Origin: Corallococcus macrosporus
Lineage (GTDB): Bacteria; Myxococcota; Myxococcia; Myxococcales; Myxococcaceae
Assembly (NCBI RefSeq): GCF_017302985.1
Contig: NZ_JAFIMU010000004.1
Location: 558,001 to 622,000, forward strand
Direction: 5' to 3'
DNA: 64,000 bases
Part shown: positions 34,125 to 63,879 of the stretch, in pieces
Layout: every line of letters starts with the position of its first letter
How positions within the stretch are numbered: position 1 is the stretch's first letter
Program-made: the position numbers and the translations under genes
Notes under the pieces: model-generated
What the model saw: only the letters and a program-made list of their open reading frames with translations
What the model was told of the DNA's origin: nothing
The model's database searches: none

Positions 34125-35240
34125 ATGTCCCTCAAGGGCACCCTCAAGGATTTCGGCATCGGCGACATCCTGCAGCTGATTGGCCAGCAGCAGAAGACGG
34201 GCACGCTCCAGCTGCGCAACAAGGACCAGGAGGTGCGCGTCGGCTTCCAGGACGGCCACATCATCAAGGCCGAAAGCCTCACCCGGAAGCGCAAGGAGCT
34301 CATCGGCGCCATGCTGGTGCGCGCCGAGATCATCACGGAGACGCAGCTGGAGGCGGCGCTGGAGGTCCAGAAGCGCACCCTCAAGCGGCTGGGCGACGTG
34401 CTGGTGCAGAGCCACGCCCTCACCGCCGAGCGCTTCCAGCACATGGCCCAGCTCCAGGTGACGGAGACGCTCTACCGCCTCTTCACCTGGAAGGCGGGCA
34501 CCTACGAGTTCATCCAGGAGCCCGTGGAGCCCGGCCCCGACGGCATCACCCCGCTGCGCGCGGAGACGGTGCTGATGGAGGGCTTCCGGATGGTGGACGA
34601 GTGGCCCGTCATCCGGAAGCGCATCCACCGCGACGACATGACCTTCGAGCGCGTCAAGGCGCTCCCGCCGCCCCGCAACGCCGAGGAGGGCGGGGAGCTG
34701 GGCGTCATCGGCCCGTCGGAGCGCCACGTCTATGAAGAGATCGCCGTGGGGCGCGACCTGCGCCGCATGGTGGACCTCTGCGGCCTGGGCGAGTTCGAGA
34801 CCTGCAAGGCGCTCTACAACCTGGTCAAGGGCGACTACGTGCGCGCCATCGACCCGGAAGGCCGCGCGCCTGTCCCGGAGGACACCCGCCTCGTCGCCCG
34901 CGTGGCCGGCCCCGTGGGCCGCGTCGCCGTGACCATGGCGGTCATCGCGGGGCTGGCCTTCATCGCGTCCCGCTGGGTCGGGGCGGGTGGACAGGAGTCC
35001 GGCGCCTCCCGGTTGGGGGATCCTGCCGCCCAGCGTCAGATTGCCCACGCGCAGCGCGTCCGCATCGAGGCCGCGCTGGAGGTGTTCCAGCTGGAAAAAG
35101 GCACCCTCCCTGAGCGGTTGGATGCATTGGTGGATGCCGGATTGTTGAGTCCGGAGGAACTGCGCTACCCGTGGCGGGAGGAGTACTATTACCGCCGCAC
35201 GGACGCCCGGCAGTTCGTCCTCCTACCGCCCGTGCGCTAG
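34125..35240 (+). CDS. DUF4388 (PATAN) protein with pseudopilin-like tail
   Basis: A 371-residue protein. DUF4388 spans about 1-150 (MSLKGTLKDFGIGDILQLIG start, GTLQLRNKDQEVRVGFQDG, then an ELIGAMLVRA helix). A transmembrane segment lies near 270-285 (VTMAVIAGLAFIASRWV). The tail (about 305-371) resembles a pseudopilin C-terminus: IEAALEVFQLEKGTLPERLDALVDAGLL followed by YPWREEYYY. PATAN domains are frequent in myxobacterial regulators. The ATG follows AGCC after GGGGAGGCCTG. Its function is unknown; the tail call is a weak resemblance. Confidence 0.82.
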   Translation: MSLKGTLKDFGIGDILQLIGQQQKTGTLQLRNKDQEVRVGFQDGHIIKAESLTRKRKELIGAMLVRAEIITETQLEAALEVQKRTLKRLGDVLVQSHALTAERFQHMAQLQVTETLYRLFTWKAGTYEFIQEPVEPGPDGITPLRAETVLMEGFRMVDEWPVIRKRIHRDDMTFERVKALPPPRNAEEGGELGVIGPSERHVYEEIAVGRDLRRMVDLCGLGEFETCKALYNLVKGDYVRAIDPEGRAPVPEDTRLVARVAGPVGRVAVTMAVIAGLAFIASRWVGAGGQESGASRLGDPAAQRQIAHAQRVRIEAALEVFQLEKGTLPERLDALVDAGLLSPEELRYPWREEYYYRRTDARQFVLLPPVR

Positions 35241-51641: not shown

Positions 51642-52706
51642 GTGCCCTCGGCATCCAACGCGCACCGGCTGGGGGACATCGCCACCCACGTCCGGGGTGA
51701 GCTCCTCGGCGACCCCGGGCTCCTCGTCCATGGCCTGAACGGCCTGGAGGAGGCGGCGCCCGGGGAGGTGTCGTTCTACGGCAACCCCCGCTACCGCAAG
51801 CAGTTCGAGGCCACCCGCGCCTCGGCGGTGCTGGTGGGGATGGATGCCCCCGCTCGCGACGGTGTGGCCCTGGTGCGTGTGCCCAACCCGCACCTGGCCT
51901 ACGCGAAGCTCCTCACCCTGTTCCACCCGGCCCGGCGGCCCCCCGCGGGCATCCACCCGGCGGCCCACGTGCACCCGGAGGCCACGGTGCACCCGGAGGC
52001 CACGGTGAAGGCCGGGGCGGTGGTGGAGAGGGGCGCCCACGTCGGCGCCCGCACGGTGCTGCACCCCGGGGCCTATGTGGGCGAGGACGCGCGCGTCGGC
52101 GACGACTGCGTGCTCTACCCGCACGCCACGGTGCGCGAGGGGTGCGTGGTCGGCTCGCGCGTCATCCTCCACGCCTCCTCGGTGGTGGGCGCGGACGGGT
52201 TCGGCTTCGCCTTCGACGCGGAGGGGGAGGACGGCCCCCGGCACTTCAAGATTCCCCAGGTGGGCATCGTCCGGATTGAAGACGACGTGGAGGTCGGCGC
52301 CTGCACCTGCATCGACCGCGCGACGGTGGGTGAAACGGTGGTGGGGCAGGGGACGAAGCTCGACAACCTCGTGCAGATCGCCCACAACGTGCGCGTGGGC
52401 CCGCTGTCGCTCATCTGCGCGCAGGCGGGCGTCTCGGGGTCGGCGGAGGTGGGCACCGGCGTGGTGCTCGCGGGGCAGGTGGGCGTGGTGGGCCACATCC
52501 GCGTGGGTGACCTGGCCAAGGTGGGCGCGCAGTCCGGCGTCGCCCACGACGTTCCGGACGGACAGGTCGTCAGTGGCAGCCCCGCCATCCCCCACAAGGA
52601 CTGGCTGCGCGCCAGCGCCGCGTCGGGGCAGCTGGCGGACCTGCTCAAGGAAGTGCGCGCCCTTCGCAAGAGGGTGGAGCTGTTGGAGAAGGAGAAGGGC
52701 GGATGA
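51642..52706 (+). CDS. lpxD: UDP-3-O-acyl-glucosamine N-acyltransferase LpxD
   Basis: A 354-residue acyltransferase that N-acylates the lipid A precursor from acyl-ACP. An N-terminal uridine-binding domain (1-100) is followed by a left-handed beta-helix of hexapeptide repeats and a C-terminal helix ([13 protein letters not shown]). The catalytic histidine is in QIAHNVRVG (about 248). Starts at GTG 51642. A perfect 18-bp tandem repeat lies inside (51969-52004). It overlaps fabZ by 4 bp. Confidence 0.95.
51969..52004 (+). repeat. Perfect 18-bp tandem repeat inside lpxD
   Basis: GTGCACCCGGAGGCCACG occurs twice in a row (51969-51986 and 51987-52004) with no mismatch. Each copy encodes one hexapeptide coil, VHPEAT. 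This could be a recent duplication of a beta-helix rung. Confidence 0.85.
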
Positions 52707-53173
52707 TGGACATTGGCGAGATCCAGGCGCTGCTGCCGCACCGCTACCCGTTCCTCCTGGTGGACCGGGTGGTGGAAATCGTGCCGGGCCAGAAGCTCAC
52801 GGCCTACAAGAGCGTCACCATCAACGAGCCCTTCTTCAACGGCCACTTCCCGGGGCACCCGGTGATGCCGGGCGTGCTCATCCTGGAGGCGCTCGCCCAG
52901 GCCACGGCCATCCTTGCGTATAAGACGGAAGCCATGGACCCGTCGCGCCTGGTGACGTACCTCATGGGCGTGGACAACGCGCGCTTCCGCAAGCCGGTGG
53001 TGCCGGGAGACCGGCTCCAGCTGGACATCGAAGTCATCCGCCACAAGGGCGCCATCTGGAAGACGAAGGGCGTGGCGTCGGTGGATGGCGCCAAGGTGGC
53101 GGAAGGGGAGTTCCTCGCCACCGTGGTGGACAAGAACAAGGCCGCCAAGGGCGACGAGAGCGCGGCGCCGTAG
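52703..53173 (+). CDS. fabZ: 3-hydroxyacyl-ACP dehydratase FabZ
   Basis: A 156-residue hot-dog fold dehydratase completing the fatty-acid cycle. The catalytic histidine lies in [11 protein letters not shown] (about 50-60) and the acidic residue in [20 protein letters not shown] is the typical start. It is interposed between lpxD and lpxA, as in many Gram-negatives, where acyl-ACP supply is balanced with lipid A synthesis. It carries a short Lys/Ala-rich tail. Confidence 0.96.
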
Positions 53174-53207
53174 GGCGCGTCACACGCGCTGCTGAGGAGA
53201 GAAGGAC

Positions 53208-53984
53208 ATGGCGCAGGTTCATCCCACCGCGGTCGTCCATCCGGGGGCCCGGCTCCACGACACCGTGGAGGTGGGGCCGTTCTCGGTCATCGGGCCCCAG
53301 GTCGTCATCGGCGCGGGCACCCGCATCGGGCCGCACGTCGTCATTGAAGGCCGCACCACGCTGGGGGAGCGCAACCACCTCTTCCAGTTCTGCTCGGTGG
53401 GCGCGGCGCCCCAGGACTTGAAGTACGCGGGCGAGGACACGGAGCTCGTCATCGGTGACGAGAACCAGATTCGCGAGTTCGTCACGGTGAACCTGGGCAC
53501 GGTGGCTGGCGGCGGCGCCACGCGCCTGGGCCACCGCAACCTGCTGCTCGCCAACAGCCACATCGCGCACGACTGCGTCGTGGGCAACGAAGTCCTCCTC
53601 GCCAACGGGGCCGCGCTCGCGGGCCACGTCACGGTGGAGGACTCGGTGAAGATCTCGGGCCTCGTCGCGGTGCACCAGTTCACCCGGCTGGGGAGATACG
53701 CGTTCATCTCCGGCGGCTCCATGGTCACCATGGACGTGCCCCCGTACTGCACCGTGCAGGGAGACCGGGCCACGCTGGTGGGCCTCAACGTCGTGGGCCT
53801 GGAGCGCGGCGGCTTCACCGAGGAGCAGATTGGCCGCGTGAAGGAGGCCTACCGCATCCTCTTCCGCTCCAAGCTGGGCCTGCAGGAGGCGCTCGCGCAG
53901 CTTCGCGGGGAGCTCTCCGGCCACCCGGAAGTGGAGCACCTGGTGCGCTTCGTGGAGACGAGCAAGCGCGGCGTCACGCGCTAG
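53208..53984 (+). CDS. lpxA: UDP-GlcNAc acyltransferase LpxA
   Basis: A 258-residue acyltransferase for the first step of lipid A synthesis, using hydroxyacyl-ACP. Hexapeptide repeats form the left-handed helix (HPTAVVHPGARL onward), with the catalytic H in ANSHIAHDC and a C-terminal helical domain (RVKEAYRILFRSKLGLQEA). The ATG at 53208 has GAGGAGAGAAGG upstream. lpxI follows 25 bp later. Confidence 0.97.
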   Translation: MAQVHPTAVVHPGARLHDTVEVGPFSVIGPQVVIGAGTRIGPHVVIEGRTTLGERNHLFQFCSVGAAPQDLKYAGEDTELVIGDENQIREFVTVNLGTVAGGGATRLGHRNLLLANSHIAHDCVVGNEVLLANGAALAGHVTVEDSVKISGLVAVHQFTRLGRYAFISGGSMVTMDVPPYCTVQGDRATLVGLNVVGLERGGFTEEQIGRVKEAYRILFRSKLGLQEALAQLRGELSGHPEVEHLVRFVETSKRGVTR

Positions 53985-54009
53985 GCCCTTTCGCGCGGAA
54001 GAAACGGAG

Positions 54010-54822
54010 TTGAAGCGCGTGGAGCGCATCGGCCTCATCGCCGGCAACGGCCAGCTTCCCTTCCTCTTCGCCCGGGCCGCCCGTGAGCGCGGCCTGGAGG
54101 TGGTGGTGGCGGCGCACCGGGGAGAGACGGACCCGGCGCTGGAGCGGGAGGTCGCCCACTTCGACTGGGTGCGCGTGGGCCAGGTGGCCCGCATCCAGAA
54201 GGTGTTCCTCCAGGCGGGCGTCACCCGGGCGGCCATGGCGGGCGGCATCGGCCGCGTGCGCGCGCTCACGGAGGCCCGGCCGGACCTGGGCGCGGTGCGC
54301 ATCATCTCGCGCCTGCGCAGCTTCCGGGACGACGCGCTCCTGCGCGCGGTGGCCGCGGACTTCGAAGAGAAGGGCATCACCATCATCGCGCCCACGGACT
54401 TCCTGGGCGAGGTGCTGTGCCCCGAAGGCCACCTGGCCGGCCCCACGCTGAAGCCCGCGCAGGAGAAGGACGTGGCCCTGGGCCGCGAGGTGGCGGTGCT
54501 CCTGGGGCAGGCGGACGTGGGCCAGACGGTGGTGGTGCGGGACGGCCACGTGCTCGCGCTGGAGGCCGTGGAGGGCACCGACGAGACCATCCGCCGGGGG
54601 GCGAAGCTGGGCGGCCCCGGCGCGGTGGTGGTGAAGCGCTGCAAGCCGGAGCAGGACCTGCGCTTCGATTTGCCCGCCGTGGGCCCGCGCACGCTGGAGG
54701 TCATGGCGGAGGTGGGGGCCCGGGTGCTGGCGCTGGAGGTAGGGCGCACGGTGCTGTTGGACGCACCTGCCCTCTTCGCGGGGGCCACCGCGCGAGGCAT
54801 CACCCTGGTGGGCGTGCGGTAG
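54010..54822 (+). CDS. lpxI: UDP-2,3-diacylglucosamine pyrophosphatase LpxI
   Basis: A 270-residue LpxI (DUF1009) enzyme. The start RIGLIAGNGQLPFLFARAA is the family signature, and IIAPTDFLGEVLCPEG and GPGAVVVKRCKPEQDLRFDLPAVG are conserved blocks. It replaces LpxH in this order, as in Caulobacter and many delta/alpha-proteobacteria. The TTG at 54010 is used, with GAAACGGAG overlapping it; alternatives lie inside the signature. It produces lipid X from UDP-diacylglucosamine. Confidence 0.94.
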   Translation: MKRVERIGLIAGNGQLPFLFARAARERGLEVVVAAHRGETDPALEREVAHFDWVRVGQVARIQKVFLQAGVTRAAMAGGIGRVRALTEARPDLGAVRIISRLRSFRDDALLRAVAADFEEKGITIIAPTDFLGEVLCPEGHLAGPTLKPAQEKDVALGREVAVLLGQADVGQTVVVRDGHVLALEAVEGTDETIRRGAKLGGPGAVVVKRCKPEQDLRFDLPAVGPRTLEVMAEVGARVLALEVGRTVLLDAPALFAGATARGITLVGVR

Positions 54823-57813: not shown

Positions 57814-58968
57814 TCAGGTGACAGCGCGCGGGGGCAGCAGCTCCAGCACCGTCTCGGCCGCGCGGTGGGCGGCCCCCACCTCGCCCAGGCGGCCGCGCAC
57901 CTCGGCCAGCCCCTGCACCATGGCGTCGCGCGGCTCGCCCGGCAGCCACACGCGCCGCACCTCGGTCGCGATGTTCTCCGGCGTCATGTCCCCCTGGAGC
58001 AGCTCCGGCACCACGCGCCGGCCGGCCAGCAGGTTGATGAGCGACACGAAGGCCACCTTCAACATCAGCCGCCCCACCAGGTACGTCACCAGCGACACGC
58101 GGTAGACGACGACCAGCGGCCGCTCCATCAGCCCCGCCTCCAGCACCGCCGTGCCGGAGGCCACCACCGCGGCGTCGCTCGCGCCCACGACCTCCGGCGC
58201 GCGTCCGTCCACCAGCACCGGCGTCACGCCGCTGCCCTCGAAGCGGGAGGTGATCTCCTCCTTCGCGATGGTGGGCGCCACCGGCACCACCACCTGGAGT
58301 CCCGGCCGCTCGGAGGAGAGCTGCTTCGCGGCCCCCACGAGCGTGGGCAGGATGCGGCGGATCTCACTCATCCGGCTGCCGGGCAGCAGCGCGAGCGTGG
58401 GAGCGTCCTGCGCCAGGCCCAGGCGCTGGCGGAACTCGCGGGCGCTCGCGGACTTGGGCATCTGCTCCAGCACGGGGCTGCCCACGTAGCGTGCGGGCAC
58501 CCCGGCCTCGCGGTAGAAGTCCTCCTCGAAGGGCAGGATGCAGAGCATGCGGTCCACCAGCCGCTGGATGGTGCGCACGCGGCCCCGGCGCCAGGCCCAG
58601 ATCATCGGGGACACGTAGTAGGCCACCGGGATGCCCAGGGCCTTGAGCTTCTTGGCCAGCCGCAGGTTGAAGTCCGGGATGTCCACCAGGATGGCGCAGT
58701 CGGGGCGGCGCTCCTCGGCGGCCTGGGCCAGGTCCTTCATGATCCGCAGGATGCGGGGGATGCGGGGCAGCACCTCCGTGATGCCCATGACGGACACCTC
58801 GCGGGCGTCGTGGATGAGCTCCACCCCCCGGGCGGCCAGCCGGGCGCCTCCCATGCCGAAGAAGGTGAGGTCGGGCCGGAGGGCCTGGAGGGCGGCGACG
58901 AGCTCCGCGGCGTGGGTGTCACCGGAGGCCTCGCCGGCCACGACGAGGATGCGGGGAGAAGGTGTCAT
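57814..58968 (-). CDS. lpxB: Lipid-A-disaccharide synthase LpxB
   Basis: A 384-residue GT-B enzyme joining lipid X and UDP-diacylglucosamine. The start is ILVVAGEASGDTHAAELV; IPDFNLRLAKK, PMIWAWRRGR and LPGSRMSEIRR are typical blocks, and the NIA...E motif near residue 350 matches the family. The ATG at 58968 corresponds to the E. coli N-terminus; the upstream ATG at 58986 would overlap a possible -10. Although lpxA and lpxI lie upstream, lpxB is on the opposite strand beyond three other genes. Confidence 0.95.
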   Translation of the reverse strand: MTPSPRILVVAGEASGDTHAAELVAALQALRPDLTFFGMGGARLAARGVELIHDAREVSVMGITEVLPRIPRILRIMKDLAQAAEERRPDCAILVDIPDFNLRLAKKLKALGIPVAYYVSPMIWAWRRGRVRTIQRLVDRMLCILPFEEDFYREAGVPARYVGSPVLEQMPKSASAREFRQRLGLAQDAPTLALLPGSRMSEIRRILPTLVGAAKQLSSERPGLQVVVPVAPTIAKEEITSRFEGSGVTPVLVDGRAPEVVGASDAAVVASGTAVLEAGLMERPLVVVYRVSLVTYLVGRLMLKVAFVSLINLLAGRRVVPELLQGDMTPENIATEVRRVWLPGEPRDAMVQGLAEVRGRLGEVGAAHRAAETVLELLPPRAVT

Positions 58969-59018
58969 GAGGGGCAGGACCCGCATCGTATAGCTGATGC
59001 GCGGGGGGAGGGAGGCTG

Positions 59019-59024
59019 TAGACT
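59019..59024 (+). promoter_or_regulatory. Possible -10 element before the J-domain gene
   Basis: TAGACT lies 9 bp before the TTG at 59034, in the 65-bp gap divergent from lpxB. No -35 box is clear. This is again consistent with a near-leaderless transcript. Confidence 0.3.
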
Positions 59025-59033
59025 GCGGCCCCC

Positions 59034-60920
59034 TTGAAGACGCTTCTGCTCGCCGAGAGCCACCCCCCGACCCTCGAGCACCTGACGGGCCTGCTCTCGC
59101 AGGCCGGGTACACCGTTCGGGCGGTGAATGACGCCGTGATGGCGTTGGAGCACTTCTCGGCGGACAACCCGGACGTGGTGGTGCTGGGCGTGGACCTGCC
59201 GCGCGTGGAGGGGCAGCACGTCGTGCACCTCATCCGGGGGCACAGCCAGGGCGGGCGCGTGCCCATCGTGGCCATCGACAAGGGGCACCTGGGCCGCGCG
59301 AAGGGCGTGGGCTCGGTGCTGGACCTGAAGGTCAACGCGTACATCCCGGATCCGCTCAAGCCCGGGGAGCTGGTGCCCCGCCTGGAGGCGCTGGTGAAGG
59401 CCGCGCAGGCCGTCACGCCCACGGGCCTGGCCGCCACGCTGTCGCGGCCCGCGGTGGCGGCGGGGGAGCTGAAGGCCTTCCCGCTGCCGGCGCTCTTGCA
59501 CTCGCTCTACCGGCTGCGCCGCGACGGCGTGCTGGTGGTGGCCCTCAAGGGCCTGTCGCGCCGCGTGTACTTCCTGCGCGGCGGGCCGGTGAACTTCGAC
59601 TCCTCCGCGAAGGAGGACGCGCTGCCGCGCTTCCTGCGCGAGCGGAAGGTCCTTACGGAGGCGCAGGAGCAGCCGGTGGTGGAGGCGCTCGCCTCCGGGC
59701 TGCGCATAGGCGCGGCGCTGGCGGACGTGGGCGTGGAGGCGGTGGGTGAGGACCTCCTGTCGCTCCTGCGCGACTTCACGAGGGACCGGCTCGGGCGCGT
59801 GCTGGCCATGCGCGAGGGCCGCTACGCGTTCTACGCGGGCGACGAGTTCTCCTCCGAAGTGGCCTCCGTGGAGCAGCCCGCCCTGGCGCCGCTGCTGGAG
59901 GCCGCGCGCAAGCGCATGCCCCTGCGGGTGGTGGCTGCGGGACTCAAGGCGCACCTGAACGAGTACCCGGTGCGCTCGGCGGACTTCGGGCGCGACCTCC
60001 AGGCGATGGCGCTGGACACGGAGGACATCAAGCTGGCCATGCAGGTGAATGGCCGCATCGTGCTCAAGGACCTGCTGGCGCACGGGCGCGCGGAGCTGCG
60101 CGCGGCGTACACGCTGCTGTGGTTCCTCAAGCTGACGGGCGGGGTGACGTTCTCCGCGACGCCGGTGGCCACGGGGACGGACGTGCTGAGCGCGGCGGCG
60201 GCGCCGGACGTCATCGCGCCGCGCAAGCGCAAGAGCCTGCCTCCGGAGACGGCGGCGTCAGTGCGTGAGGAGGCGGTGCGCATCATCACGCGCAGCTACT
60301 TCGGCGGGCTGGGGCTGGACCTCGCGGCGGATAAAGAAGCGGTGGAGCGCGCGTACCACGAGACGGCGATGCGCTTTCACCCGGACACCTACGCGGAGTT
60401 CGACATCTCCGACCTGCGCGACCTCTTGGAGCAGGTGCAGGAGAAGCTGTCCGCGGCGTACCGCGTGCTGAGCGTGGACGAGAAGCGCCGCGCCTACCTC
60501 CAGTACTTCTTCAGCCGGCAGGAGGTCGTGGGCCGGGCGACCGCCATCAACGTGGACGCGGAGCTCGCGCTGCGCCGGGGCGAGTCCGCGATGAAGCGGG
60601 GCGACTACAAGGCGGCCATCCAGGGCTTCGAGGAAGCGGTGGCCCTCAACGGCAGCGAGCCCGAGTACTACTCGTACCTCGCCTGGGCGAAGTACCGGGG
60701 CTCGCCCGGGCCGCTGATGCAGCGGGCGCTCGCGGCGCGCAAGGTGCTCAAGCAGGCGCTGACGTTGGATCCGTACCTGGAGCGGGCGCAGATCATCGCG
60801 GCCATCATCGAGATCGACCTGGACGACGCGCCGCTCGCGCGAAAGAAGCTGATGAAGGTGCTGGAGCTGAACCCGTATTCGGTGCTCGCGAGGGCGGCGT
60901 TGCAGAAGGTGGTGAAGTAG
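59034..60920 (+). CDS. Degenerate receiver - PATAN (DUF4388) - J-domain - TPR protein
   Basis: A 628-residue protein. The N-terminal receiver fold (about 1-125) has lost the phosphorylation site: the acidic pair reads AES, the acceptor position aligned with D is G (VVVLGVDLP), and the lysine is replaced by D. Then a PATAN-like domain (about 145-300), a J-domain (about 425-500) with intact HPD (FHPDT), and TPR-like helices (about 505-628). The start is TTG. It may be a chaperone-linked adaptor. It ends 2 bp before the ABC exporter gene. Confidence 0.82.
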   Translation: MKTLLLAESHPPTLEHLTGLLSQAGYTVRAVNDAVMALEHFSADNPDVVVLGVDLPRVEGQHVVHLIRGHSQGGRVPIVAIDKGHLGRAKGVGSVLDLKVNAYIPDPLKPGELVPRLEALVKAAQAVTPTGLAATLSRPAVAAGELKAFPLPALLHSLYRLRRDGVLVVALKGLSRRVYFLRGGPVNFDSSAKEDALPRFLRERKVLTEAQEQPVVEALASGLRIGAALADVGVEAVGEDLLSLLRDFTRDRLGRVLAMREGRYAFYAGDEFSSEVASVEQPALAPLLEAARKRMPLRVVAAGLKAHLNEYPVRSADFGRDLQAMALDTEDIKLAMQVNGRIVLKDLLAHGRAELRAAYTLLWFLKLTGGVTFSATPVATGTDVLSAAAAPDVIAPRKRKSLPPETAASVREEAVRIITRSYFGGLGLDLAADKEAVERAYHETAMRFHPDTYAEFDISDLRDLLEQVQEKLSAAYRVLSVDEKRRAYLQYFFSRQEVVGRATAINVDAELALRRGESAMKRGDYKAAIQGFEEAVALNGSEPEYYSYLAWAKYRGSPGPLMQRALAARKVLKQALTLDPYLERAQIIAAIIEIDLDDAPLARKKLMKVLELNPYSVLARAALQKVVK

Positions 60921-60922
60921 TC

Positions 60923-62707
60923 ATGCATCACGCGCTCTGGAGGCTCTTGCGCTACGCGAAGCCGCACGCGGGAATCCTCGTCCTGGCCTTCGTGTGCATG
61001 GCGGTGCTGGGACTCGCCACGGGTGCGTACGCGTACCTCCTGGGCCCGGCGCTGCGCTTCCTGTTGTCGGGAGGCGAAGAGGGCTTCGCGAGCGCGCACC
61101 GGGTGCCGTGGCTGGCGGACCTGCCGCGCGAGGCGGCGCTCTGGGGCTTCCCGGTGCTGGTGCTGGGCGTGGGCGCGGTGAAGGGCGTGGGCTACCTGGG
61201 CCAGTTCTACTTCATAGGCCTGTTCGCGCAGCGCGTGGTGAAGGACCTGCGGCGCGACCTGTTCCTGCGGCTCACCGCGCTGTCACCGTCGCAGCTGTCG
61301 AAGGAGCGGACAGGAGACCTGCTCAGCCGCTTCTCCTCGGACGTGATGGCGGTGGAGATGGCCGCCATGTACACGGTGGGCTCGTACCTGAGAGACACCA
61401 TTCAAGTCCTGGTGCTCGCGGGCGTGGCGCTGGCGATGAGCCCGATGCTGGGCGGCTTGATGCTCGCCGTGATTCCGCTGGCGGCGCTGCCCGCGTCGAG
61501 GCTCACGCGCAAGGTGCTGAAGGGAACGCGCGAAGGGCAGGCCCACCTGGGGCAGCTCGCGGGCCAGCTGCACGAAGGGCTGGGAGGGCTGCGCACCATC
61601 CAGGCCTTCAACGGTCAGCAGGCGGAGCTGGCGCGCTTCGAGTCCTACGCGAAGGCGCACGAGGAAGCAGTGGTGGGCGCGGCCTGGGCGCGCGGAGGCG
61701 TGCCGGGGTTGATGGAGGTGCTCGCGGCGGCGGCGCTCGCGGGAGCGCTGGGATACGCGGCGGCGACGCGGGCGATGGAGCCGGAGGCACTCCTGTCGCT
61801 GCTCACGGCGGTCATCCTCGTGTATCAGCCGGTGAAGGACCTGGGTCGCGTGACGCAGTTCGCGGTGCAGGCGGGGGCCGCGGGAGAGCGCCTCTTCGCG
61901 CTGCTCGACCTCAAGCACCCGGTGGAGGACGCCGCCAGCGCGGTGCCTGCACCCGCGCTGCGTGACTCGCTGCGCATGGAAGACGTGCGCTTCTTCTACG
62001 GAGAGCGCCGAGCGCTGGACGGGCTGACCCTGGACCTGAAGGTGGGGCAGGTGGCGGCGCTGGTGGGCGGCAGTGGCGGAGGCAAGAGCACGGTGACGTC
62101 GCTGCTGCTGCGCTTCGAGCGGCCGCAGCAGGGGCGCATCCTCCTGGACGGAGTGGACGCGGACACGTACACGGCGGCGAGCGTCCGCAGCCAGTTCGCG
62201 CTGGTGACGCAGGAGCCGCTGCTCTTCCACGGCACGGTGCTGCAGAACCTGCGGCACGCCAGACCGGAAGCGACGCGCGAGGAAGTGGAGGCCGCGGCGA
62301 AGGTGGCGAACGCGGACGCCTTCATCCAGGGGCTACCACAGGGCTACGACACGCGCATCGGCGAGCGAGGCGTCATCCTGAGCGGAGGCCAGCGTCAGCG
62401 TCTGTGCATCGCGAGGGCCGTCCTGTCGAAGGCCCCCGTGCTGGTGCTGGACGAAGCCACGAGCAGCCTGGATCCGGAGAACGAGCGTGAAGTGCAGGCC
62501 GCGCTGGCGAAGGTGCTCCCCGGCCGGACGGCGCTGGTCATCGCGCACCGGCTGTCGACGGTGACGAGCGCGGACGTCATCCACGTGGTGGAGGCAGGCC
62601 GCATCGTGGAGAGCGGAAGCCACGCGGACCTGCTCCAGAAGGACGGCCGCTACGCCGCCATGTGGCGCCTGCAGACGTCAGGCCCCATCGAGCGGGGCGC
62701 GGCATGA
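60923..62707 (+). CDS. msbA: MsbA-type ABC exporter
   Basis: A 594-residue half transporter. Six hydrophobic helices occupy about 18-320, then the ATPase: Walker A GGSGGGKSTV (about 382-391), signature LSGGQRQRLC and Walker B LVLDEATSS. This matches MsbA, which flips lipid A-core. The nearby lpxB and probable kdtA support that role, though other lipid exporters have the same form. It starts 2 bp after the J-domain gene stop and overlaps the PHP gene (ATGA). Confidence 0.85.
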   Translation: MHHALWRLLRYAKPHAGILVLAFVCMAVLGLATGAYAYLLGPALRFLLSGGEEGFASAHRVPWLADLPREAALWGFPVLVLGVGAVKGVGYLGQFYFIGLFAQRVVKDLRRDLFLRLTALSPSQLSKERTGDLLSRFSSDVMAVEMAAMYTVGSYLRDTIQVLVLAGVALAMSPMLGGLMLAVIPLAALPASRLTRKVLKGTREGQAHLGQLAGQLHEGLGGLRTIQAFNGQQAELARFESYAKAHEEAVVGAAWARGGVPGLMEVLAAAALAGALGYAAATRAMEPEALLSLLTAVILVYQPVKDLGRVTQFAVQAGAAGERLFALLDLKHPVEDAASAVPAPALRDSLRMEDVRFFYGERRALDGLTLDLKVGQVAALVGGSGGGKSTVTSLLLRFERPQQGRILLDGVDADTYTAASVRSQFALVTQEPLLFHGTVLQNLRHARPEATREEVEAAAKVANADAFIQGLPQGYDTRIGERGVILSGGQRQRLCIARAVLSKAPVLVLDEATSSLDPENEREVQAALAKVLPGRTALVIAHRLSTVTSADVIHVVEAGRIVESGSHADLLQKDGRYAAMWRLQTSGPIERGAA

Positions 62708-63879
62708 GCAAGGCCGCCAAGACCCGGCGGCCCCTCTCCCTGGCGATCCGCGCCGTGTTCGGCGTGTTGTTCCTGATCATGGGCGTCGCGGGCTTCTTCG
62801 CCTTCGCGGCCGGCTTCGCGGACTACCCCGTCATTGAGCCCGCGCCGAACGCGAAGCCATGGATCCGCGGCGCGTACCACGTGCACACCACGCGCTCGGA
62901 CGGGAACGGGACGCCCGCGAAGGTCGCCCAGGCGGCGAAGGCAGCCGGCCTGGACTTCGTGGTGCTCACCGACCACAACGACTTCAAGCCGCCCGCGCCG
63001 ACCTGGGCGGACGGTGTGTTGCTCATCCCCGGAGTGGAGATCTCCACCAGCGCGGGCCATCTGGCCGCGTTCGGGATGCAGCGCCCCATCGAAGGCGTGA
63101 AGCCCTGGGGTCCCCCGGATCAGGCCATGGCCGCGGTCGAAGTCGCAGGAGGCACGGCGATCCTCGCGCATCCGGTCCAGACGAAGAACCCCTGGAAGGA
63201 CGAAGCAACGGCGCATCAGGTCCCGGGCTTCGAGCTGTACTCGGCGGACACCTTCTTCCGGCAGGCGCTGCGAAGCCCGGTGAGCCGTCTCCTGCCCGCG
63301 CTGGGGGCCTCGATGGTGAATCCGGTGCACGGCGTGATGCTGCTCGCGGTCCCGGAGCCGCCCCCCACCGAGCGCTTCCTGAAACTGGCGCGAGAGCGCA
63401 AGCGCATCGCCCTGTGCGGAAGCGACGCGCACGGCCTGCCCGAATACGAGGACATCTTCGCCGCGCTCGACATGGAGCTTCCGCCGGACGTGCTGCCGGG
63501 GCCCCTGTCCCAGGATGCGCGCGAAGCCGCGACCCAGGTCACGCAGGCCCTGTCGAGCGGCCAGGCCCTCTGCGTCTTCCGTGCACTGGGAGCCCCCGAT
63601 GGCTTCGCCCTGGAAGGCTTCGACGCGAACACGAGGGAGGCCCCCATGGGCACGGTGCTGACGGTCCGCCTCCCGGAACACACCCCGGGGACGCTGGAGG
63701 TGCGGGTGTGGGGCGACGGCCGCCTGCAACCCGACGGACAGCACATCGAGCTGACCGGTCCCGGAGTGGTCCAGGTAGAGGTCTGGGCCCACGCGCCCGG
63801 ACGTTTCTTCGGCCACGAGTGGCGGCCCTGGATGGTCCCCAGTCCGGTGCGAGTGGTGCCGCGACCGCCGGGCATCTGA
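62704..63879 (+). CDS. Membrane-anchored PHP-domain phosphoesterase
   Basis: A 391-residue protein with one N-terminal anchor (about 17-42) and a PHP domain with the metal-binding motifs HVHTTRSDG (about 59-67), LTDHND (about 90-95), a lone H in AHPVQ and SDAH (about 240-243). All four blocks needed for a trinuclear site are present. The C-terminal 110 residues look like a beta domain. Its substrate is unknown. It is coupled to the msbA-like gene by an ATGA overlap and lies just ahead of the probable kdtA. Confidence 0.86.
   Translation: MSKAAKTRRPLSLAIRAVFGVLFLIMGVAGFFAFAAGFADYPVIEPAPNAKPWIRGAYHVHTTRSDGNGTPAKVAQAAKAAGLDFVVLTDHNDFKPPAPTWADGVLLIPGVEISTSAGHLAAFGMQRPIEGVKPWGPPDQAMAAVEVAGGTAILAHPVQTKNPWKDEATAHQVPGFELYSADTFFRQALRSPVSRLLPALGASMVNPVHGVMLLAVPEPPPTERFLKLARERKRIALCGSDAHGLPEYEDIFAALDMELPPDVLPGPLSQDAREAATQVTQALSSGQALCVFRALGAPDGFALEGFDANTREAPMGTVLTVRLPEHTPGTLEVRVWGDGRLQPDGQHIELTGPGVVQVEVWAHAPGRFFGHEWRPWMVPSPVRVVPRPPGI

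Follow-up and report, generated by a model that had tools for sequence, protein, structure and literature searches.

The gene analysed here, from the predatory soil bacterium Corallococcus macrosporus, encodes a protein in which a receiver domain with a dead active site is followed by a DUF4388 domain, a J-domain whose DnaK-facing surface is altered and a TPR region, and it stands beside lipid A genes in an order that is conserved among many of its orthologs. Residue counts over these orthologs indicate that the receiver is genuinely inactive as a phospho-switch and has long been so. Because this switch has been dismantled and is nevertheless strictly conserved in that state, the protein probably scaffolds or controls envelope building through protein contacts and not through phosphorylation. 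Judging from the sequence, the protein would most likely be a phosphorylation-independent scaffold or co-chaperone for lipopolysaccharide (LPS) assembly, working with a non-standard Hsp70 or with none.

Gene and domain architecture

The open reading frame, Pfam matches, orthologs and an AlphaFold2 model together identified a genuine Corallococcus gene with a TTG start and 628 codons for amino acids (Table 1; "the window" is the whole 64,000-nucleotide stretch analysed). Three Pfam-A families matched the protein above their curated cut-offs, namely Response_reg (E = 4.3e-11), DUF4388 (1.1e-12; 48.5 bits against a cut-off of 25) and DnaJ (5.5e-8; 33.2 bits against 27.8). Single TPR models of Pfam matched from residue 509, each below its own cut-off, and VIA-align matched residues ~504-628 of the AlphaFold2 model to TPR structures (Z up to 19.1 over 119 residues, rmsd 2.2) and residues 1-126 to receivers (Z up to 18.6 over 121 residues, rmsd 2.3). 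The model, built with 29 homologs, had a mean pLDDT of 87.4 and a pTM of 0.47, and its linker at 381-397 is loose, indicating that the domains are trustworthy whereas their relative placement is unsure. The order receiver, PATAN, J-domain and TPR, which the first-pass annotation had proposed, was thus borne out by three Pfam domains and by the modelled TPR region; we take DUF4388 to be the PATAN domain.

At E <= 1e-30 the gene was matched in 32 of the 59 genomes of the family, its own 9.8-Mb genome counted, and was without a match in the other 27; the closest named protein matches were from Corallococcus species (92-98% identity). Conservation was counted over 68 distinct proteins out of 89 loci, two of which lack the N-terminus and one of these also the acceptor column. 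Across the phylum, a search with the protein (E <= 1e-25) matched 85 of 179 genomes, some of them through partial matches or members of the clade B described below, and a search with an alignment (E <= 1e-40) matched 165 of 179, largely through members of the wider family among the best matches listed. A second DUF4388 protein is encoded in the window (34125-35240, forward strand, 371 residues, E = 1.6e-32), and the whole genome has 17 DUF4388 match places.

Table 1. Features of the gene and its surroundings, in window coordinates
Feature	Position	Strand	Evidence
Pseudo-receiver/DUF4388 (PATAN)/J-domain/TPR protein	59034..60920	+	ORF, Pfam, orthologs, AlphaFold2
Pseudo-receiver domain, aa 5-117	59046..59384	+	Pfam PF00072 (4.3e-11), residue counts
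DUF4388/PATAN domain, aa 143-293	59460..59912	+	Pfam PF14332
C-terminal part of PATAN region, aa 294-380, putatively winged-helix-like	59913..60173	+	AlphaFold2 model of aa 131-380, weak VIA-align matches
J-domain, aa 422-488	60297..60497	+	Pfam PF00226, residue counts
TPR region, aa 506-628	60549..60917	+	AlphaFold2 and VIA-align; Pfam TPR models below cut-off
lpxB, divergent neighbour	57814..58986	-	TIGR00215, 337.8 bits against a cut-off of 190
msbA-like exporter, starting 2 bp past the stop codon	60923..62707	+	TIGR02203, 1e-134, 450 bits, below the 602-bit cut-off
PHP-domain protein, true start maybe later	62662..63879	+	Pfam PF02811, 27.5 bits against a cut-off of 26.4
Upstream cluster of lpxD, fabZ, lpxA and lpxI	51642..54822	+	LpxA by NCBIfam
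-10-like element TGTAGACT, its end 9 nt from the TTG start	59017..59024	+	Sequence, kept in orthologs

The receiver is inactive yet conserved

The acceptor column (residue 52, Gly in this protein) holds Ser in 32, Gly in 18 and Ala in 17 of the 68 orthologs, with one gap, and an acceptor Asp was found in none of the 67 distinct proteins having the column. The claim of the first-pass annotation that the receiver lacks its phosphorylation aspartate therefore holds well beyond this one protein. The column of the switch Thr is occupied by Asp in 68 of 68 orthologs (D82) and that of the Lys by Asp in 66 of 68 (D106). The second acidic residue of receivers is present in 2 of 66 orthologs and is S9 here; an acidic residue at position 8 (E8) is found in 66 of 66, H10 in 65 of 66 and H85 in 68 of 68. 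One ortholog, L100, is without H10 and D106, and another, L098, is without D106. A shifted alignment with D54 as the acceptor was rejected: this residue stands at D+2, since pairwise comparisons with 12 canonical-receiver relatives set residue 52 against Asp and residue 54 against Leu in all 12.

The domain has the receiver fold by Pfam and VIA-align and does not have a phosphorylatable set of catalytic residues. It is thus recognised as a receiver and lacks the key catalytic residues, which is the definition of a pseudo-receiver given in the accessible part of a recent review (PMC12632262). In one ortholog (L096), no Response_reg match passed an E-value of 0.001. Nei-Gojobori dN/dS ratios for the receiver in four species pairs were 0.10, 0.16, 0.18 and 0.28. 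The other domains ranged higher (DUF4388 region 0.27-0.42, J-domain 0.22-0.36, TPR region 0.42-0.55), and the receiver had the lowest ratio of the four folded domains in every pair. This slowest evolution indicates that the domain is in use and not decaying.

A sister group of paralogs keeps the phosphorylation site

The first-pass annotation had suggested a search for the same architecture, and proteins of this kind were found. We use the label clade B for these REC-DUF4388-DnaJ-TPR proteins of Myxococcota and clade A for the orthologs; the identical four-domain order was present in all four clade B members scanned by Pfam (L102, L105, L147 and L151). In an alignment of hand-picked representatives (22 of clade A and 23 of clade B, so that the clade B proportions are not those of a census), the Lys column of clade B held Lys in 23 of 23, the switch column Ser in 20 and Thr in one, and the acceptor column Asp in 22, with all three features kept in 21. 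Two relatives from the C. macrosporus genome, L142 and L143, were excluded from the clade B counts, and L143 also from the tree.

Clade A formed one side of a branch in a tree of 46 rows (SH-aLRT 100, stem length 1.6), which was made by a quick method with a midpoint root and composition warnings, and in which four long rows (L109, L106, L142 and L093) are of uncertain placement. The tree ruled out clade B proteins as direct orthologs. Members of both clades coexist in four genomes (G147, G010, G024 and G153; same-genome pairs L090/L149, L101/L147, L041/L148 and L092/L104), indicating that they are old paralogs, and, given the intact catalytic set in the relatives, the pseudo-receiver is the mark of one ancient clade. 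The first-pass annotation had held that close relatives retaining the acceptor aspartate would speak against it: the orthologs, which all lack this residue, are on its side, whereas the sister-group paralogs, which keep it, are not.

Separate pseudo-receivers were seen within clade B, where L156 has Gly at the acceptor and switch columns and L103, whose acceptor alignment is uncertain, has no switch Ser. The reverse case, an acceptor Asp kept with a changed HPD, was seen in L106, L109, L158 and L159 (HSD, NPQ, HPH and RVD, respectively). As to the two relatives from the own genome, L142 (1102-3639 of its locus, forward strand) is a DUF4388-J-TPR paralog with no receiver match and with long Pro/Gly/Ala-rich stretches, and L143 (reverse strand) matches the protein to its end and has SPL in place of HPD in a J-like region.

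The J-domain has an altered DnaK-facing surface

The HPD motif is formed by H449, P450 and D451 (60378-60386). H449 and P450 are found in 68 of 68 orthologs and the third position is Asp in 65 and Glu in three (L090, L092 and L095), which are not grouped together in the tree. The intact HPD noted in the first-pass annotation was therefore confirmed for this protein and for most orthologs; the HPE variants suggest that J activity may perhaps be dispensable.

DnaJ contacts DnaK through helix II residues R22, K26 and R27, as stated in a review (PMC10349383). The J-domain does not have this basic helix II, with E438 and E443 at DnaJ positions 22 and 27, and Q469 stands at position 47. Throughout clade A, R22 is replaced by Glu (68/68), K26 by His (55/68), R27 by Glu (62/68) and F47 by Gln (66/68). 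Position 22 in clade B (n = 23) is Lys in 10, Arg in eight, Thr in two, Glu in one and other residues in two, and position 47 is Phe in 15 and Tyr in four. Two DnaJ-like proteins of the own genome (L110 and L111), read by eye, have K22, R26, K27 and F47, and an HscB-like protein (L122; names and positions likewise read by eye) has E22, R26 and E27 and no F47. The HscB C-terminal domain gave no Pfam match in the protein up to E 10, a level at which filters drop most weak matches. The routing of targets to DnaK, as proposed in the first-pass annotation, is thus weakened by the loss of the basic helix II residues and F47 and by HPE in three lineages, and this part is the weakest link of that reading.

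The own genome has 19 Hsp70-family and 15 J-domain match places, and several J genes lie ~2 kb or less from an Hsp70 gene. For the Hsp70 proteins, the columns are safe for position 206 only, because the following loop differs in length from that of E. coli DnaK. In the 13 of 19 own-genome matches covered by this reading, position 206 is Lys in L166, the Hsp70 beside the HscB-like gene, Arg in L169 and Glu in two DnaK-like proteins. Among the 30 of 35 matches read in four further clade A genomes, a basic residue at 206 was found in three genomes (Arg in two, Lys in one) and not in G107. Since Hsp70 proteins with a basic 206 may simply be HscA, their occurrence does not discriminate, and a complementary-charge Hsp70 was dropped as evidence for a partner. 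An HscA-like or other Hsp70 is predicted only as a possible partner.

The PATAN region has largely lost a c-di-GMP-type motif

DUF4388 matched all 29 aligned members at E up to 1. Modelled alone by AlphaFold2, residues 131-380 reached a pLDDT of 93. With this model, Foldseek returned no PDB match with E < 0.001 and the best VIA-align Z was 6.3, the C-terminal part (aa 294-380) being weak (Z ~6); on these values we make no claim of a known or new fold. A helical insert at residues ~192-256 (59607-59801) matched MshE (5htl) by profile (1.6e-6), and also the N-domains of PilF and PilB, so that its profile relates it to one half of an MshEN domain. Its structural match to MshE with c-di-GMP (5htl) was weak (Z 4.2, rmsd 3.1, 58 residues), and in the 29 members Pfam matched no MshEN-type family.

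The c-di-GMP receptor motif of MshEN consists of two RLGxx..LxxxLxxQ copies, according to the accessible part of its description (PMC5013675). Clade B has retained LG in motif I and R, G and the final Gln in motif II. Of the 22 clade A rows, 3 have the motif-I Gly and 21 have Tyr, His or Phe in place of the final Gln, and the first motif of the protein studied here reads ALP. We therefore rejected c-di-GMP binding through the MshEN-like insert, the motif being largely lost in clade A. With these losses, the phospho-acceptor, the c-di-GMP-type motif and the DnaK face are all altered in one lineage.

Lipid A genes surround the gene and a -10-like element precedes it

Downstream of the gene, the order is msbA-like, PHP, waaA, two glycosyltransferase genes, lpxK and a PfkB-family kinase gene, and in the upstream cluster the products that we take to be LpxD, FabZ and LpxI were assigned by eye from ORF sequences. 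Among the loci L042-L066, which contain close relatives and are not independent, the msbA-like gene is directly next in all 25. Each of the 22 loci with an upstream flank has lpxB at a distance within 6 kb, and in 20 it adjoins the gene; in two Archangium loci the gaps to lpxB are 2.3 and 4.5 kb. One of these loci, L058, is filed as Comamonas sp. KCTC 72670, a title that looks wrong in view of its myxobacterial gene order.

Elsewhere, L093 and L101 have both lpxB and an msbA-like gene near the gene. In L092 (family f10, another order) lpxB is again divergent and adjoining, with the MsbA match further off. L091, L096, L097 and L100 have lpxI and lpxA within ~3-6 kb, and in the three family f3 loci read (L091, L096 and L100) heme-like ORFs stand between these genes and the gene of interest. 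No clear lipid A gene was found in the fetched flanks of L090, L094, L095, L098 and L099 (that of L098 being short and that of L095 holding a weak ABC match), nor was any lipid A match found near the eight clade B loci checked (L102-L109, two under 8 kb). The lipid A neighbours thus recur, though not in every lineage, across those Myxococcaceae that have the gene and in part outside them, which substantiates the adjacency to lipid A genes noted in the first-pass annotation, with LpxB, MsbA-like, WaaA and LpxK products encoded beside the gene.

In most Myxococcaceae orthologs, TGTAGACT, TGTACACT or TGTAGAGT ends 9-11 nt upstream of a TTG or GTG start; in several members of family f3, TAGAAT or TACAAT stands 6-7 nt upstream of GTG. 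Of 20 distinct upstream regions (one of them a wrong match), 16 had TAnnnT at 4-12 nt from the start, whereas among 4857 start-like codons taken from the window as a control only 11 had it in that place. A conserved -10-like element so near the start suggests that the message is probably leaderless, with TGTAGACT probably as its promoter.

Possible functions

We tentatively favour, at somewhat less than even confidence, a predicted role in LPS assembly, as a J-domain scaffold that works independently of phosphorylation. The receiver, its old active site rebuilt with Asp and His, would act as a constitutive protein-binding module joined to the PATAN, J-domain and TPR arm. Because the gene heads a putative msbA-PHP-waaA-GT-GT-lpxK operon beside lpxB, we infer that the protein would be made with the last lipid A and the core enzymes. 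The TPR and PATAN arms might then hold their client, an LPS enzyme or a regulator of such enzymes, and the HPD loop might call an Hsp70 whose lobe II surface is atypical, either HscA-like or basic at DnaK position 206. The dose of the protein, and not phosphorylation, would thereby tune how much LPS machinery there is or how it is assembled. This reading draws on the dead but slowly evolving receiver, the well-supported long branch of clade A, the recurrent lipid A neighbours, the HPD kept together with E22 and Q47, and the E22 and E27 of the HscB-like L122 next to an Hsp70 with K206; against it stand the 27 family genomes with no match, the loci with no clear lipid A gene or with heme-like genes in between, the HPE variants and the unsure domain placement.

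It is rather unlikely, although a reading to be taken seriously, that the protein is a scaffold or localisation factor pure and simple, with the J-domain kept as a fold only and a partner recruited in the manner of FrzS. The interaction of a cyanobacterial PATAN protein with the pilus motor PilB suggests that such a partner may be a motility or polarity factor. The loss of R22, R27 and F47 and the three HPE lineages are consistent with this, as are the interaction of the FrzS pseudo-receiver with SgmX (accessible part of PMC11580455), that of PixE with PilB1, known from a title, and the profile relation of the PATAN insert to the N-domains of MshE and PilB. However, H449 and P450 are invariant in all 68 orthologs, the TPR region is less conserved than the J-domain in four of four pairs, and the genes around are for LPS and not for motility. 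The model of the first-pass annotation, an adaptor bringing targets to canonical DnaK on a non-phospho signal, agrees with the HPD intact in 65 of 68 orthologs and with a J-domain above the Pfam cut-off, but we consider it unlikely, as helix II is acidic where that of DnaJ is basic and as L110 and L111 keep K22, R26, K27 and F47 and 18 of 23 clade B proteins have Lys or Arg at position 22.

To the same low degree we would credit the gene with being a passenger that inherited its place among the lipid A genes and acts elsewhere: the absence of a clear lipid A gene near L090, L094, L095 and L099 points this way, whereas the 2-bp spacing to the msbA-like gene, the recurrence of lpxB/msbA flanks across genera and the adjoining lpxB in another order (L092) point the other way. 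That the rebuilt pocket is a sensor, in which E8, H10, D82, H85 and D106 would bind a divalent metal or small ligand as a switch in place of the phosphoryl group, seems quite improbable. These residues form a near-invariant set in clade A at or beside the old active site, and H10, D82, H85 and D106 each occur in at most one-tenth of clade B paralogs at these columns, E8 being common to both clades; against the idea, position 85 is conserved in clade B too, as Tyr in 20 of 23 proteins, and so may be a structural contact, and L100 (H10, D106) and L098 (D106) have lost parts of the set. Least probable, indeed very improbable, is a predicted extension in which a metal- or ligand-gated receiver, through the same five residues, drives the charge-reversed J-domain towards a dedicated non-DnaK Hsp70 and so controls LPS assembly, in a lineage whose one searched genome showed no LapB.

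Comparison with known systems

The J-domain scaffold that we favour shares parts with several systems. FrzS of Myxococcus xanthus, from the same bacterial group, likewise has a receiver fold without the acceptor Asp and acts by protein contacts; as described in the accessible part of PMC11580455, it carries a coiled coil, whereas the present protein has PATAN, J-domain and TPR regions and its own conserved His/Asp set. Clade B proteins share the four-domain order (four scanned) and differ in a live receiver (21/23), a basic residue at position 22 (18/23) and Phe or Tyr at 47 (19/23). HscB, as seen in L122, has the acidic residues 22 and 27 and the lack of F47 in common with the protein, which differs in being without the HscB C-terminal domain and in having receiver, PATAN and TPR regions added. 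PixE has the domain order PATAN-receiver. Regulators of this PATAN-CheY type, so far as their accessible descriptions go, share the PATAN and receiver domains, to which the present protein adds a J-domain and a TPR region, its receiver being dead. PixE is reported to interact with PilB1 in a title cited in PMC9239167, a paper on cyanobacteria that connects a DnaK system with pili and with the secretion of polysaccharide, and that has PATAN in the reference list only.

LapB (YciM), a TPR adaptor of LpxC proteolysis in the accessible literature, is alike in concept only, as a TPR protein tied to the amount of LPS. It has a C-terminal Zn ribbon besides its TPR region, whereas the present protein has a J-domain and a receiver and no Zn ribbon: PF18073 did not match it, and the sole match of this family in the genome reads as RadA. 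LapB itself was not detected in the own genome (best match 36.8 bits against a cut-off of 474); one of 14 control genomes passed this cut-off, which can only have been E. coli, so the model may be too narrow. Titles and abstract beginnings of the open-licence literature yielded no description of a receiver-PATAN-DnaJ architecture and nothing on DUF4388 in Myxococcus or on lpxB together with msbA in M. xanthus; the only match for DUF4388 was a nitrite reductase paper.

How bacterial pseudo-receivers switch is called a mystery in the accessible part of a 2025 review (PMC12632262). The proteins described here provide matched paralogs of one four-domain kind, one clade phosphorylatable and the other not, sometimes in the same genome, and clade A offers defined replacement residues together with gene neighbours that name a pathway. 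The two clades also constitute a natural test of J-domain/Hsp70 specificity, and the clade A protein is a candidate LPS controller in a genome, the one searched, in which LapB was not detected.
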